DNA of 20,458 nucleotides, from IMG/VR virus record IMGVR_UViG_3300006638_000029, positions 1-20,458 of that record; one strand, 5' to 3'. The translations under genes were made by a program, and so were the position numbers. Source of the stretch: a virus. Shown here piece by piece: positions 2,833-20,430 of the stretch (its first letter is position 1; the number at the start of each line of letters is the position of its first letter). Below the pieces are notes generated by a model that saw only the letters and a program-made list of their open reading frames with translations, made no database searches and was not told where the DNA came from.

Positions 2833-3681
2833 CTAGGGCAGGCGTTCGGCGGTGACCTCAAGGGTGTCGAGATCGATTGCGAAATGACTGATGCAAGCCG
2901 GCATCGAGGACTCAGGGACATTCGGGCTTTGGGTGGTGCCAGCGCCAATCGGCACGCCGGTCCATGTCGGATTGCATTGATCGTCCGACGAGAAATCGCG
3001 CTTGCCCTTCCAGGTGCCGACGCCAAGCGCCCATCGGTAGGTGGTGCTGCTTGATGCGCCGGCCGTCGCGATCTCGAACGTCAGCGGCCGAGCCGGGCTG
3101 AGTAGTTTTTTGATCTTGCTGAGATTGAAGAAGACGATTGCATGCGCTGTGGAAAAATAAGTTGAAATCGTCTGACTTTCGGTGTGCGAGGCGGTGATCT
3201 CCCAGATGATCCAATAGATCTGGTCGGCGGAGATGCCATAGCCCTCGACCCAGCCGTCGATTGCCTGTTGCAGCACGTCCTGATCGGGCACGCCGTCATG
3301 GTAGGGGACACGCACCCCGCCGAGCGGCGAGCCGCCGCCATAGGCCCAACCATTCCAGATCGCCTCGTCGACGACAGTCGCCTGATAGGTCTGACTTTCC
3401 GAATGCTGGCCGGACCAGGGCGGTCGGCTCCACATATATTCGCGCGCCAGCATGGCGGACGAAAACGGATTGACGATAGGCGTGCCATCCGGCGCGCCGA
3501 TGCGCGTCAACAAGTTGAACGTGGTGCCGAATGGCAGTCCGCTCAATGCAGGCGTGTCGCCGAATTGGTTGCCGCCAACATAGTCGATTGAAAGAACCAG
3601 CGTCGCGATGCGCGCCCCGGCCCAGCCGACCCCGATAATCTTCTCGTGCGGATCGAGGCGCCATGGGGGATCAAGCGCCAT
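2833..3681 (-). CDS. Hypothetical virion protein, tail-tip region
   Basis: 282 residues from ATG 3681. This start overlaps the end of the upstream gene by 11 bases and is preceded by a purine-rich AAGAACAAGAG stretch. An upstream in-frame GTG at 3726 would add a basic 15-residue leader that looks like read-through of the other gene's frame, so it was not chosen. The protein has no signal peptide or membrane helix. It is rich in Trp, Tyr, Ser and Thr (for example a WNGWAYGGG segment near the middle and repeated ESQT motifs), as in secreted or structural beta proteins. No family was recognised. It lies in the tight tail-tip gene run and is probably a minor structural or fibre-associated component. 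Confidence 0.75.
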   Translation of the reverse strand: MALDPPWRLDPHEKIIGVGWAGARIATLVLSIDYVGGNQFGDTPALSGLPFGTTFNLLTRIGAPDGTPIVNPFSSAMLAREYMWSRPPWSGQHSESQTYQATVVDEAIWNGWAYGGGSPLGGVRVPYHDGVPDQDVLQQAIDGWVEGYGISADQIYWIIWEITASHTESQTISTYFSTAHAIVFFNLSKIKKLLSPARPLTFEIATAGASSSTTYRWALGVGTWKGKRDFSSDDQCNPTWTGVPIGAGTTQSPNVPESSMPACISHFAIDLDTLEVTAERLP

Positions 3682-4012
3682 TGCTCTTGTTCTTGTAGCT
3701 GAATGTCGTCTCTTGGCCGTTGGCACCTGATGTCTTGAGCTTGTTGATCAGCTCGACATCGACATATTGCGTGTCGTCGTCCGGATTGGTGATCCGCTTG
3801 ACGTGTGTGTCGCGGCTCAATTCACGATGCTTGTTTTCGACGTAGGACGTGACCGTGCTGCTGTGGCTCGAATTGAATGTCTTGGTCGATCCGGCTTGCC
3901 CGCACTGAACCAGAACATTGTCGACCGGCGTCTCGCTGGAATTGAAAATCCGCTGTGGCGGCGTCACGTCCTTTGACTGAAACGGGCGAACGATGCGCTC
4001 AAGACTGGTCAT
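3671..4012 (-). CDS. Small hypothetical tail-region protein
   Basis: 113 residues, very polar and Ser/Thr/Asn-rich, with many charged residues and no hydrophobic helix. The ATG at 4012 overlaps the preceding stop by four bases, and its own stop overlaps the next start, so it sits inside the translationally coupled late operon. Its sequence (PFQSKDVTPPQRIF near the start, DDDTQYVDVELINKLK near the end) matched no family known to me. A small tail-tip or assembly factor is the most that context allows. GC is somewhat lower than in the head genes, as in the neighbouring tail-tip genes. Confidence 0.7.
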   Translation of the reverse strand: MTSLERIVRPFQSKDVTPPQRIFNSSETPVDNVLVQCGQAGSTKTFNSSHSSTVTSYVENKHRELSRDTHVKRITNPDDDTQYVDVELINKLKTSGANGQETTFSYKNKSNGA

Positions 4013-5943
4013 GACGACGCAGCCTCAAGATTGATCATCTTCGGCACCTTCAATTCCGACACAGCGATGTTGTATGCCGTCTCGAATGACATGCCAGCGA
4101 CGGGTTTTAATTCGAGGTCGTACCAGACCGAATTACCTTTCAGAATTTCGGTCGTGGTTTGCGATTGCAACGCCGCGATGCGGTTTTGATCGTTTACGTT
4201 GCGCGGCTGCGCGTTGTTGACTTCCACATCGATCGGGAACGAGGCGCGGATTGCGTCCGCTTGCGCGTCGGCCGAGCCGTGAACTTGCTCGCGCACCGTC
4301 GCTTGGCGCTTCGACAGCGGGAACACCAGCCCGTCATCATTGGGCGCGTCGATCGGCGGCGCGTAGCGCACATCGCTCGCCGGCAAGGCGATCTCGCGGT
4401 TGAAATAGGCCTGATAGCCGGCCGCCATATAGCCGGGTTCCGCGTAAGTCGGCTCGCCGGGCTGATCTTCAATCGCCCCGCCATAGCCGATGGCACAACC
4501 GATAGTCACCGATCCGATAGCAAGGCCAGTCGAGCCATCGACGCCGAAATTGTAGTCGATGATCTTGCCAAGAGCTTGCCCACCCGGCAGGTGGTCGTCG
4601 AACACTCGCGCGTTCTTGCGACAAGACAGCGCGACGGCGCGCTCAAAGGTACAGTCGAATGTGATCTCGACGGCACGCGAACGGATCAACAAATTCGCGC
4701 GGGCAAGCGCAATCAGATATTCGAGGCTCCACAGACCGCGATCTGTGGGGAGATACGAGCGCCGGCCAAGGGAGCTGATGGGCGGCGGGCCGCCGGCTAC
4801 ACTTGAGCCAACATCCTGTGAGTCCAGCGTGATCGCCAGAACATCGGCATCCTCGGCCAGCGTGACGATGTCCTGCACGTCGGTCGAAAGCGTAAACCGC
4901 GCGTGCTCTTTGCGCGGCCGATTGGCCTCGTATTTCAGCGTCATGCTCGCCTGGACCTGCCAGAGCGGCACATAAAGGCCGGTACTTTCCTGCGTCGCGG
5001 GGATATTGATCGGATCGCTGTCCGGACCACCTTCGTCGAGGACGCCGGTCTGGAATTTCCGCATCAGGTCCGTGTAAAGGTACGGGCCGCGCATGATCGG
5101 CACCGAGCTTGAAATACTGACCGACATCGTGTCGCCGGTGGCGTGCTTTTTCTCCTGGTTTTGCCAATTGACGGTGCAATTGACCGTATCGACGTTATCG
5201 ACATCGTTGAGATCGCGAGCCGAGGCGGCAACAACCGTCCACCCGCCGCTGAGGCTCGCGCCCGGCTTCGGCCACCCCGAAATCAGCGATTGCCCGGTGT
5301 AGGTCGCAACGTTAAGGCCGAATTGCAACGTGCCCGATGAGCTTTGCGTCCAATTGATCGCAGCGTCGACGGAAACGCTCCGCAGCGGCGGCTCGCCGAG
5401 ATTAATCTTAACCGAGTCGTAGGGTACGTCGCCCGGCTGAAAATCCTCGATGCCATCCTCTCCGACCAGGACATCAGAAATATCGACCTCGTGGGTGACG
5501 CGATCAATCGACCAGAGCGCCGAACGTGCCTCAAGAACGGTGTCAGGATCATCGAGCGATTGGGGATTGATCCAGATCGGATCGTAATAGGGCCGCACCT
5601 TCAACGATTCCGCCTTCGCCGCTTTGCGCGAGACGAAATTGGCCGGGCGCGCCGTGAACACCAGCGTCACCAATTCCTGATTGAGGTCGGTCGGAACGGC
5701 GACCAACCGACCGTAAAACAGCGGGACGAGATCGACGCCATTCTGCCAAGACAGCCAAGCCCAGACGCGGCGCGACGGCGCCAACAGGCCTATGCGCGGA
5801 TTCTTGATATCGATGGACAGGCTCGCAAACTCGCCCTCGGCATGCTCGACCCGAAACGAAAACACCTCCTCATCTTCGATCCTGTGCTCGGGCCCGAACG
5901 CAGTTTCGGCGTCGGTCCAGGCAAAGTAGAACGGTCCCGGCAT
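4009..5943 (-). CDS. Putative tail hub / baseplate-like protein
   Basis: 644 residues from ATG 5943, overlapping the upstream stop in a TGATG arrangement. The N-terminal 115 residues read as a beta-barrel-like hub domain: FSFRVEHAEGEFASLSIDI, then NPRIGLLAPSRRVWAWLSW, then LFYGRLVAVP. This is the layout of the first domain of tail hub proteins of the gp27/gpD type, a short beta domain ending in an xFxGxV-like strand. A long Ser/Thr/Gly-rich beta region follows (about 160-500). The C-terminal 140 residues are more helical, ending with SFETAYNIAVSELKVPK. It lies two genes downstream of the tape measure, where siphoviruses encode hub and tip proteins. The hub assignment is inferred from the N-terminal pattern and position; an alternative is a large minor tail protein of an unnamed alphaproteobacterial family. 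Confidence 0.65.
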   Translation of the reverse strand: MPGPFYFAWTDAETAFGPEHRIEDEEVFSFRVEHAEGEFASLSIDIKNPRIGLLAPSRRVWAWLSWQNGVDLVPLFYGRLVAVPTDLNQELVTLVFTARPANFVSRKAAKAESLKVRPYYDPIWINPQSLDDPDTVLEARSALWSIDRVTHEVDISDVLVGEDGIEDFQPGDVPYDSVKINLGEPPLRSVSVDAAINWTQSSSGTLQFGLNVATYTGQSLISGWPKPGASLSGGWTVVAASARDLNDVDNVDTVNCTVNWQNQEKKHATGDTMSVSISSSVPIMRGPYLYTDLMRKFQTGVLDEGGPDSDPINIPATQESTGLYVPLWQVQASMTLKYEANRPRKEHARFTLSTDVQDIVTLAEDADVLAITLDSQDVGSSVAGGPPPISSLGRRSYLPTDRGLWSLEYLIALARANLLIRSRAVEITFDCTFERAVALSCRKNARVFDDHLPGGQALGKIIDYNFGVDGSTGLAIGSVTIGCAIGYGGAIEDQPGEPTYAEPGYMAAGYQAYFNREIALPASDVRYAPPIDAPNDDGLVFPLSKRQATVREQVHGSADAQADAIRASFPIDVEVNNAQPRNVNDQNRIAALQSQTTTEILKGNSVWYDLELKPVAGMSFETAYNIAVSELKVPKMINLEAASS

Positions 5944-9973: not shown

Positions 9974-10396
9974 TCAGCGCGTCGATGGCTTCGGCGATTT
10001 CGAAGCCGGCACCGAAACGGATGGAGCGGCGTCGAGCAGATGCCCGACCGCCGTCAGCTTCTCGACGAAAGGGCCGAGGCCCACCGGCAGTGTGAGGCGC
10101 AGGATCGCGGTAAGAAGATCGGCCTGGGCGTCAATCGAAAGCTTGCTTGCCACCGCTTCTGCCTTCTCATCGCCGGGATAGCCGCAGCCGGCCGAAATGA
10201 TGGACGCGACCGCGTCGCCGCCCATCGCCATCAGTTGCGAGGCCTCAACGTCCTGCCCGGTCATCAACATGCGTAACTCGGGAAAGCGGCCGAGCAGGTG
10301 CGCCACACCCTTTGCCGAGATGCCGTGCACGGTTACGGACGCGCCTTGCACATCGACGGTCTCGATCTTGGGCGCGATGTCGATCAGTCCGACCAT
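9974..10396 (-). CDS. Pre-tape-measure tail assembly chaperone (lambda G-like)
   Basis: 140 residues from ATG 10396, with a good ribosome site (AAAAGGA, five bases before the start). A reading ten residues longer starts from a weaker site and was not chosen. The protein begins MVGLIDIAPKIETVDVQG, then has VSAKG-type and RFPELRMLM motifs near residues 25-45, GYPGDEKAEAVASKL near 78 and DAQADLLTAILRLTLP near 95. These are features of alphaproteobacterial pre-tape-measure proteins that coat the tape measure during tail assembly. The tail ends in a flexible Ser/Pro/Lys-rich stretch (SVSVPASKSPKPSTR). A second open frame in the -1 phase overlaps its last part. It lies downstream of the tail tube gene but is separated from it by an inserted plus-strand gene. 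Confidence 0.82.
   Translation of the reverse strand: MVGLIDIAPKIETVDVQGASVTVHGISAKGVAHLLGRFPELRMLMTGQDVEASQLMAMGGDAVASIISAGCGYPGDEKAEAVASKLSIDAQADLLTAILRLTLPVGLGPFVEKLTAVGHLLDAAPSVSVPASKSPKPSTR
10067..10073 (-). promoter_or_regulatory. Candidate -1 ribosomal frameshift heptamer CCCTTTC
   Basis: On the minus strand the heptamer lies in the X XXY YYZ register of the G-like gene (C CCT TTC, Gly-Pro-Phe-Val context), where both tRNAs could re-pair after slipping one base back. It falls inside the window in which the -1 frame is open (from 10130 down to the stop at 9789-9791) and before the zero-frame stop at 9974-9976. It is the only strict XXXYYYZ heptamer I found in that overlap. Slippage here would insert about 16 Arg/Ala-rich residues before the chaperone-like sequence, so a site nearer to 10025 by another mechanism is also possible. 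Confidence 0.4.
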
Positions 10397-10476
10397 AAAG
10401 ATCCTTTTGAGGCTAGAGTGGAACAACGATGGTGAGGGCTACGGTGTTAAATTGAACTAACCAAGTGAGGCTATGT

Positions 10477-11004
10477 ATGTGGGTTTTCGCTTATGGATCA
10501 TTGATGAATGACGGGTGGGAGAAGCCGCACAAATGCGCGCGCCGTGTCCATGCCACTTTATTTGGATTCAGCCGGGCGTTCGACAAGGCATCTATTGAAA
10601 GCCGCGGGACTAAGAACAATCCAGCTCCGACACTCCGGATCGTATCTTCGAATGGATCCTGTCGAGGCATTGCATTTGAATTTTCGGAAAATAGGCGGCC
10701 AGAGGTCCTCAAGGAGCTGCGTGAACGCGAGGGTCAAACGTTTCCCTTGAGGGACCAATTGGTGACCCTAGAGGACGAACAGAAAGTGATTGCTCTTGTT
10801 CCCATGTATGAAGGGCGGAATCTTATACGAGAGAACACCCTCTCCAAGATTGCCGCGATGGCGATCAAGGCGCGTGGCACTAGAGGTTCCGGCGTAGAGT
10901 ATGTACGAGATATAGCTCACCACCTGCGCGCTTCAGGAATTGACGATCCTGTAGTTCAGGATCTCTGGGAAGAACTCCAGAGACAGTTGCTAATCGAGCA
11001 ATAG
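10477..11004 (+). CDS. ChaC-like gamma-glutamylcyclotransferase, inserted moron gene
   Basis: 175 residues on the opposite strand to all surrounding phage genes. ATG 10477 is favoured because GTGAGG (10465-10470) lies six bases before it and the protein then begins MWVFAYGSLM, the family's N-terminal YGSL substrate-binding loop (residues 6-9). Other family marks are GSCRGIAFEF (from residue 60), matching the GSC-G-AF strand of ChaC proteins, and LREREG, whose first Glu (E83) aligns with the catalytic Glu of the REKGGY motif in ChaC. ChaC enzymes cleave gamma-glutamyl peptides, classically glutathione, to 5-oxoproline and the remaining dipeptide, in the cytoplasm. GC is about 52 percent by hand count against low 60s in flanking genes, which indicates separate acquisition. 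A weak extended -10-like TGTTAAATT at 10446-10454 might serve as its promoter, but no -35 box is clear. Probably expressed independently of the late operon, perhaps in the lysogen. Confidence 0.82.
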   Translation: MWVFAYGSLMNDGWEKPHKCARRVHATLFGFSRAFDKASIESRGTKNNPAPTLRIVSSNGSCRGIAFEFSENRRPEVLKELREREGQTFPLRDQLVTLEDEQKVIALVPMYEGRNLIRENTLSKIAAMAIKARGTRGSGVEYVRDIAHHLRASGIDDPVVQDLWEELQRQLLIEQ

Positions 11005-11032
11005 CTGCACGGATTAGGCGCAAAAGTCTCGT

Positions 11033-11557
11033 TCAGGGGCCCACTGCCTGCTCACGCACCGTCCAGTTGCCGAACTTCCCCAGATCATTGGCAAGCGCCT
11101 CGCCCTCGACTTCGATGTTGCCCCACTCGTCCGAGATCGGATTGAGTGACTTGCCGGGCTTGAACACGACCCGGAACAGATCGATGTCCATCTGCGAGCC
11201 GATCTCGTTGGTGCCCTCGTACTTGAGCTCGCCCTCGAAGATGTTGCGCGAGAAGATATCGATCACCTTGTTGCCATCGGTGTCGGTGCTGATGTCGCCA
11301 AGCAGCATCATGGCGAGGTTGTCGGCGGTCCACTCGTCCATAACCATGGTCACAGTCATCTTCTTCTCAGTGACCACTTCCATGTCCTTCTTCTTGACGC
11401 CCTCCCGGGAGGAGAAGTGCTCGAGCGTCGTGATGTTCGGCGCGGTTTCGAGCGAGCTGACGTTGCCGACGTCGCGGAACGTCGTTTCGCCGACGGCCTT
11501 GAAGCTGATCTTGCCTTTGCCGACGTAGTAGTTATCGGTCGAGGGGGAAACGGGCAT
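11033..11557 (-). CDS. Major tail tube protein
   Basis: 174 residues from ATG 11557, preceded by GGAGG six bases upstream, the strongest ribosome site in the tail region, as expected for an abundant subunit. The sequence begins MPVSPSTDNYYVGKGKISF and continues FRDVGNVSSLETAPNITTLEHF, a pattern typical of siphovirus tail tube proteins: an N-terminal strand, then a D-GN--S-E segment, then a long charged beta hairpin (SSREGVKKKDMEVVTEKK near residue 50). A polar central loop (GDISTDTDGNKVID) and a FRVVFKPGKSLNPIS strand follow. It corresponds in order to lambda V. Subunits stack as hexameric rings around the tape measure. The stop lies 28 bases from the end of the convergent ChaC-like gene. Confidence 0.88.
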   Translation of the reverse strand: MPVSPSTDNYYVGKGKISFKAVGETTFRDVGNVSSLETAPNITTLEHFSSREGVKKKDMEVVTEKKMTVTMVMDEWTADNLAMMLLGDISTDTDGNKVIDIFSRNIFEGELKYEGTNEIGSQMDIDLFRVVFKPGKSLNPISDEWGNIEVEGEALANDLGKFGNWTVREQAVGP

Positions 11558-19851: not shown

Positions 19852-20430
19852 ATGCCGCAACTTTCCGATTCTCAACTCGTCGTTCTGACCGCCGCTTGCC
19901 AGCGCCCTGACCGCTGCGTGTTTCCGGTCACCGCGAAACTCAAGGGCAATGCCGCTGGCAATGTGCTCAAGAGCCTGCTGAAGAAGAAACTCATCAAGGA
20001 GGTTCGCGCCAAGCGTGACGACACGGTTTGGCGTCACGACGAGAAGCGCGGGCGGATGACGCTCGTTGCCACCAAAGCCGCATTCGCCGCACTGGGCATT
20101 GACGAACGCGAGGAGGAACTGGAAGCGGAGCCTGATGAGGCTGCTACGCCATCAACCGAAGTTGAGGCTGAACCGAACCAACGCCCAAATGCATCCAAAA
20201 CAAAGAAGCCAAAGCCTCGCCGCAGCCGCGACGACAGCAAGCAGGCGCAACTCATCGTGATGCTGAAGCGGACCAAAGGCGCGAGCATCGAGGAGATCGT
20301 TGCCGCCTTCGGCTGGCAAGCCCACACCGTGCGCGGCGCCATTGCCGGTGCACTCAAGAAGAAACTCGGCCTGGATATCACCTCGGAGAAGGACGAGAAA
20401 CGCGGGCGAGTTTACAAAATCGCCGGTTAG
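19852..20430 (+). CDS. DUF3489-type protein with two winged-helix-like halves
   Basis: 192 residues from ATG 19852, with AAGGGAG about eight bases upstream. The C-terminal part (from about residue 130: SKQAQLIVMLKRTKGASIEE, then IVAAFGWQAHTVRGAIAGAL, then KKKLGLDITSEKDEKRGRVY) is the DUF3489 pattern, a likely winged-helix DNA-binding fold. The N-terminal half has a related layout: LLKKKL at 42-47 and DEKRGR at 63-68, echoed by ALKKKL at 167-172 and DEKRGR at 181-186. An acidic then basic, low-complexity linker (about 88-128) joins the halves. In Hyphomicrobiales such genes often sit beside DUF2924 and serine recombinase genes on mobile elements, and those might follow beyond the right edge; this is recollection, not seen here. 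A regulatory or recombination-accessory DNA-binding role is likely. Confidence 0.82.
   Translation: MPQLSDSQLVVLTAACQRPDRCVFPVTAKLKGNAAGNVLKSLLKKKLIKEVRAKRDDTVWRHDEKRGRMTLVATKAAFAALGIDEREEELEAEPDEAATPSTEVEAEPNQRPNASKTKKPKPRRSRDDSKQAQLIVMLKRTKGASIEEIVAAFGWQAHTVRGAIAGALKKKLGLDITSEKDEKRGRVYKIAG

Follow-up and report, generated by a model that had tools for sequence, protein, structure and literature searches.

A divergent ChaC-like gene at a variable cargo site in the tail operon of a probably temperate phage

We found that a ChaC-like gene lies backwards in the tail operon of a phage from an uncultured group, at a site that is empty or differently filled in related phages, and that its product, the nearest relative of which is encoded in a bacterial defence-island neighbourhood, falls in a divergent branch of the ChaC family. 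The best overall explanation, to which we give a probability of roughly 40%, is that the gene is expressed in the lysogen and encodes a predicted gamma-glutamyl cyclotransferase that would bring a benefit in competition with other phages. The window, by which we mean the whole stretch of DNA analyzed, is a linear viral contig of 20,458 bases with a minus-strand head-tail module (lambda-type terminase, portal, protease, decoration, major capsid protein E, attachment, terminator, tail tube, pre-tape-measure and tape measure genes). The features that bear on the argument are as follows.

9974..10396, minus strand: pre-tape-measure gene, one anchor of the cargo site (Pfam PF23789, 2.9e-15)
about 10433..11032, no strand assigned: accessory cassette of ~600 bp, absent or replaced in relatives (blastn against L004)
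10467..10470, plus strand: GAGG, likely ribosome-binding site of the ChaC-like gene, 6 nt 5' of the ATG, read from the sequence
10477..11004, plus strand: ChaC-like gene, 175 aa, likely ATG start, divergent branch of PF04752 (Pfam, AlphaFold2, Foldseek, tree)
11033..11557, minus strand: tail tube gene, the other anchor of the cargo site (PHROG 807, 2.2e-34; NCBIfam tail tube, 2.3e-29)

The sequence-only reading had placed the gene antisense between two tail genes, and this placement stands, with a plus-strand gene between minus-strand neighbours; the identification of the tail tube gene also held, but the gene then called a tail chaperone is a pre-tape-measure gene by its PF23789 match. The extents are corrected to a coding part of 10477-11004 and a foreign segment of about 10433-11032. 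In the list of open reading frames the plus-strand frame runs over 10465-11004 (+), and translation likely starts at ATG 10477 (MWVFAYGSL...), the residue equivalent to the one at which the closest bacterial relative begins. The odd base composition noted earlier was confirmed: GC is 51.8% in the ChaC-like frame versus a mean of 63.9% for 16 phage genes, GC3 is 53.7% versus a mean of 79.0% for the same set, and the codon-usage score lies 5.9 standard deviations below windows of phage genes. A scan restricted to the sigma-70-like type found no promoter or terminator around the gene, and no RNA families or tRNAs were found in the 20,458-base window. An assembly or frameshift artefact was rejected on two grounds: the frame of 525 bp is open, and IMGVR 3300025862_000029, another contig that may derive from the same sample as the window, is identical over the region.

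Comparison with related phages supports the view that the gene sits at a cargo site. The anchors are conserved in five relatives, at 82–97% identity for the tail tube gene and 74–91% for the pre-tape-measure gene. In a blastn comparison with the relative L004, the alignment to the window stops at 11033 on one side and resumes at 10432 on the other, L004 having a different 1.64 kb in between; beyond the insert the identity is 93%. The cassette carries one gene only, and no repeats or mobile-element ends were found at its boundaries. The site is empty in the close relatives L006 and L007, which have about 60 bp and about 20 bp, respectively, between the tube and pre-tape-measure genes, and the more distant L019–L027 and L035 likewise leave little room there. 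Four filled sites were seen in total. In L004 the cargo is an antisense gene for a 495-aa UPF0149/SEC-C protein whose C-terminal part matches the PADLOC candidate PDC-S12 (8.8e-37), a match that covers only the widespread UPF0149/SEC-C part; in L005 it is an antisense RES and Xre gene pair (L005:5575-6492), a toxin-antitoxin pair by family; and in L008 it is an antisense 121-aa frame with no assigned function. GC3 of cargo in the relatives is likewise below that of phage genes (0.59–0.67), and most, but not all, cargo in the phage lineage is antisense. Given these occupied, empty and differently filled sites, the ChaC-like gene is very probably a moron-like accessory cassette at a variable site, and the moron character proposed earlier is well supported by the family search, the predicted fold, and the occupied versus empty sites.

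Relatives carry cargo at other junctions as well, in places with rearranged structural genes. An antisense SOUL haem-binding gene lies between the pre-tape-measure and DUF6441 genes of L005 (L005:7213-7842), and in L007 an antisense DUF1232 gene separates the major capsid gene from the head-tail attachment gene (L007:3767-4198). L008 has two copies of the terminator and tail tube genes, separated by a gene for a PAS/HisKA_2 histidine kinase, and its second terminator copy looks broken (L008:2426-5522). About 2.5 kb of unrelated genes replace the attachment, terminator and tube genes in L014 (L014:3495-6000), including genes for a His-rich protein and cytochrome b561 and a 241-aa antisense frame, and the end of the capsid gene looks cut.

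The phage clade is probably temperate. Larger relatives carry integrases and, in some cases, repressors: resolvase-type recombinases in frames of 484–509 aa, as in large serine integrases, occur in the records of L007, L008 and L009, tyrosine integrases occur in L021 and L024, and S24-type repressors occur in L008 and L009. The window fragment itself has no integrase or repressor, and for this phage a temperate lifestyle is inferred from its relatives. No relatives of the tail tube protein were found in bacterial genomes, either in the genome scan or in a sample of 385 Alphaproteobacteria.

The assignment to the ChaC family, first made by eye from motifs, is borne out by both profile and structure comparisons. 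Residues 1–167, the whole domain, match Pfam ChaC PF04752 with 79.9 bits (cut-off 21; E 3.1e-22), and the score of the protein for the AIG2-like family is below the Pfam cut-off. An AlphaFold2 model has a mean pLDDT of 93.4 and a pTM of 0.88, with other ChaCs in the model's alignment, as the input was an alignment of 40 ChaC proteins. With Foldseek, the top solved structures for this model are human ChaC2 and yeast Gcg1 (E 2.7e-14 to human ChaC2 6ky1), and against human ChaC2 (6ky0 and 6ky1) the Z score is 21.4 over 165 residues with an rmsd of about 2; GGCT and GGACT structures rank well below. Because the predicted fold equals that of ChaC2 and the Pfam match is so strong, the family match is not due to chance, and the condition under which the sequence-only reading would have been refuted, a missing ChaC/GGCT fold, does not apply.

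The active site retains its catalytic residues, but several positions of the pocket differ. The protein has in common with human ChaC2, yeast Gcg1 and bacterial ChaC the fold, the YGS loop and the catalytic glutamate: the YGSL motif is present (Y6 G7 S8 L9), and the catalytic Glu is E85 by alignment. Relative to ChaC2, whose active-site residues have described roles (PMC7022552), Tyr6, Gly7 and Ser8 are the same at identical positions, and Arg40, Glu74, Glu83 and Tyr144 correspond to Arg43, Glu76, Glu85 and Tyr142. Mutation of the catalytic Glu is reported to cause loss of activity in RipAY (PMC4959522). Conversely, His39 is changed to Ser42 and Tyr87 to Phe89, Tyr109 aligns with a Pro, three residues are inserted after YGSLM, and the PG[LR]V stretch, which is nearly invariant in 82 ordinary ChaCs, reads PAPT. 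Thus, the phage protein departs from ordinary ChaCs at positions that vary little or not at all among them (PG[LR]V, Tyr87, His39/Tyr). These changes, together with its divergence from the ordinary glutathione type, weaken the claim that it is an ordinary glutathione-cleaving ChaC without lowering the claim of a working cyclotransferase. From the retained residues and predicted fold, the product probably works as a gamma-glutamyl cyclotransferase, whereas the odds that glutathione is its main substrate fall a little below even. The suggestion of a glutathione-cleaving enzyme is therefore tentative: the catalytic Glu and YGS loop are kept, but pocket residues have changed and the branch is divergent.

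By sequence, the phage protein is not an ordinary bacterial ChaC, a finding that goes beyond the sequence-only reading. By far its best match among those listed in a scan of bacterial genomes is a protein of an Alcaligenaceae genome (L044; 41%, E 2e-38; next match, 2e-22), and other members of the branch may exist beyond the listed matches. The two proteins have in common the motif YGSLMxDGWEK and the other residue changes, although Arg43, kept in the phage protein, is replaced by Trp in the L044 protein. In a maximum-likelihood tree of 84 proteins they form a pair with support of 100/99 and a stem of 2.4 changes per column, separate from all 82 ordinary ChaCs; both are long branches, which makes the depth of the branch less certain than the pairing. 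The shared insert also backs the pairing. Recent capture of an ordinary host ChaC was rejected as to subfamily, as the 82 ordinary ChaCs group apart, and the L044 genome additionally encodes an ordinary ChaC of its own. No further branch members were found at E 1e-26 or 1e-27 besides L044 in samples of Proteobacteria, Alphaproteobacteria, and the family and order of L044, and none were found in plasmids, phages or viral contigs.

The genomic setting of the sister gene in L044 links this branch to defence genes. The gene starts 28 bp after a gene for an ATPase of 880 aa, which PADLOC matches to its candidate PDC-S06 (7.5e-123), and divergent genes of a BREX system (WYL, BrxA and BrxB) lie on the other side of the ATPase gene. 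Behind the sister gene, an 82-aa frame and genes for RadC and a DUF3560 protein may belong to the same island (L044:6559-9055). The ordinary ChaCs that we inspected adjoin metabolic or transport genes. We also considered PDC-S06 and ChaC as an obligate two-gene system. This is unsupported, since PDC-S06 homologues lack an adjoining ChaC on plasmids of Yersinia ruckeri (69.5%), Burkholderia, Methylomonas, Rhizobium and Pseudomonas, in a plasmid gene table that is incomplete and with frame-level inspection of the PDC-S06 neighbourhood for the Yersinia gap only. PADLOC has no model for the ChaC-like protein, and our literature searches found no report that ties ChaC to toxin-antitoxin systems or defence.

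Among viruses, the gene is rare. Queries with the phage protein, the L044 protein and an ordinary ChaC found no ChaC in 50,697 phage records. In viral contigs, the sole further carrier is the second contig of the same virus, identical over 10 kb, and patterns that fit ordinary ChaCs added nothing to it; these phage and viral scans rely on short peptide patterns, with which members can be missed. The superfamily fold does occur in phages. Arthrobacter cluster AL phages encode AIG2-like gamma-glutamylcyclotransferases (PMC5513430), but that gene is of the AIG2/GGACT type and lies beside an amidoligase gene outside the virion-gene region, whereas the gene described here is of the ChaC type. A protein of Cellulophaga phage phi14:2 (BFVD) is also of the AIG2/GGACT type and has the same superfamily fold, with distant structural similarity.

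The locus resembles two kinds of known system. Loci at which a prophage gene runs antisense to lytic genes are typical of morons, and such a gene can be served by a promoter of its own (PMC7067206). Like morons such as STMMW_20121 of ST64B, which is antisense to lytic genes (PMC7067206), the cassette has a foreign composition, is antisense to late genes, is present or absent between close relatives, and belongs to a probably temperate phage; expression in the lysogen from its own promoter is a feature of such morons that we infer for the cassette. P2 and P4 are known to carry exchangeable antiviral cargo between conserved phage genes (PMC9122126), and here too a small locus between two conserved genes holds exchangeable cargo, including a toxin-antitoxin pair and matches to defence candidates. 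The site described here differs from those of P2 and P4 in that it belongs to another phage group, an uncultured one, and falls within the tail operon, with four filled sites and cargo that is candidate rather than established defence.

These observations are consistent with a model in which the cassette, placed at a variable site in a phage that is of the lambda type and probably temperate, would be read from its own start during lysogeny, as expected for a gene antisense to the late tail operon. By analogy with ChaC2, the YGS loop would hold the gamma-glutamyl group and Glu85 would serve as acid/base in the release of 5-oxoproline. Since the pocket has a remodelled rim, either glutathione or a different gamma-glutamyl compound may be the substrate. 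The lysogen would then gain in competition with other phages, and the gene would form part of a mobile defence gene pool. A role in phage exclusion or defence, suggested by context, is plausible but somewhat less likely than not. The BREX/PDC-S06 neighbourhood of the sister gene and the RES-Xre pair at the same site in L005 favour this part of the earlier proposal, whereas the SOUL, DUF1232 and histidine kinase cargo is not obviously defensive, and the link to defence comes from one neighbour genome (L044). It is unlikely, though worth stating, that this rare branch, found in a BREX/PDC-S06 neighbourhood and at a prophage cargo site, represents a so far undescribed enzyme of anti-phage defence or exclusion whose substrate, be it a thiol, a modified protein or a signal, is a gamma-glutamyl compound other than or besides glutathione.

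Alternatively, the gene could be a moron with a metabolic or redox role: as a true cyclotransferase of glutathione or gamma-glutamyl peptides, its product would alter how the lysogen manages thiols, cysteine or nitrogen and would take no direct part in phage defence. The predicted ChaC fold and catalytic residues would suit such a role, as would the host-physiology-like cargo of the lineage (SOUL haem-binding, HisKA_2 kinase, DUF1232, cytochrome b561), and we regard it as possible but doubtful, given a divergent pocket and a nearest relative that lies among BREX and PDC-S06 genes and not in a metabolic operon. A captured bacterial gene with no selected phage function, tolerated because of its position between operon genes, would account for the restriction to a single virus, the absence of repeats at the insert boundaries and the unameliorated composition. 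This is quite improbable, as the frame is open, the catalytic residues are kept in two proteins that are only 41% identical, and the slot is repeatedly filled by intact genes in relatives. Least probable is that the enzyme adds a group to, or takes one off, a specific molecule of a toxin, a defence system or a phage, in the manner of an antitoxin or anti-defence protein whose substrate is not glutathione. The altered substrate rim with its retained catalytic Glu, the operon-like position behind PDC-S06 in L044, and the RES-Xre pair at the same phage site are compatible with this role, but the cassette is a single gene with no partner gene in the phage, and PDC-S06 relatives elsewhere lack a ChaC.

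One odd gene thus yields two leads: a cargo site in the tail operon of phages from an uncultured group, with occupants that are candidates for exclusion functions, and a divergent ChaC branch present in a phage as well as next to defence genes of a bacterium. If lysogens prove to be protected, thiol or gamma-glutamyl chemistry would be added to the means by which bacteria and prophages are known to stop phages. Elsewhere in the window, a 644-aa protein encoded behind the tape measure gene (4009-5943) and a 297-aa protein (2833-3726) have no Pfam or PHROG match and, judged by position, probably form part of the tail tip. A plus-strand gene at 19852-20430, upstream of the terminase genes, encodes a DUF3489 protein that belongs to PHROG 10315, a group of no known function.
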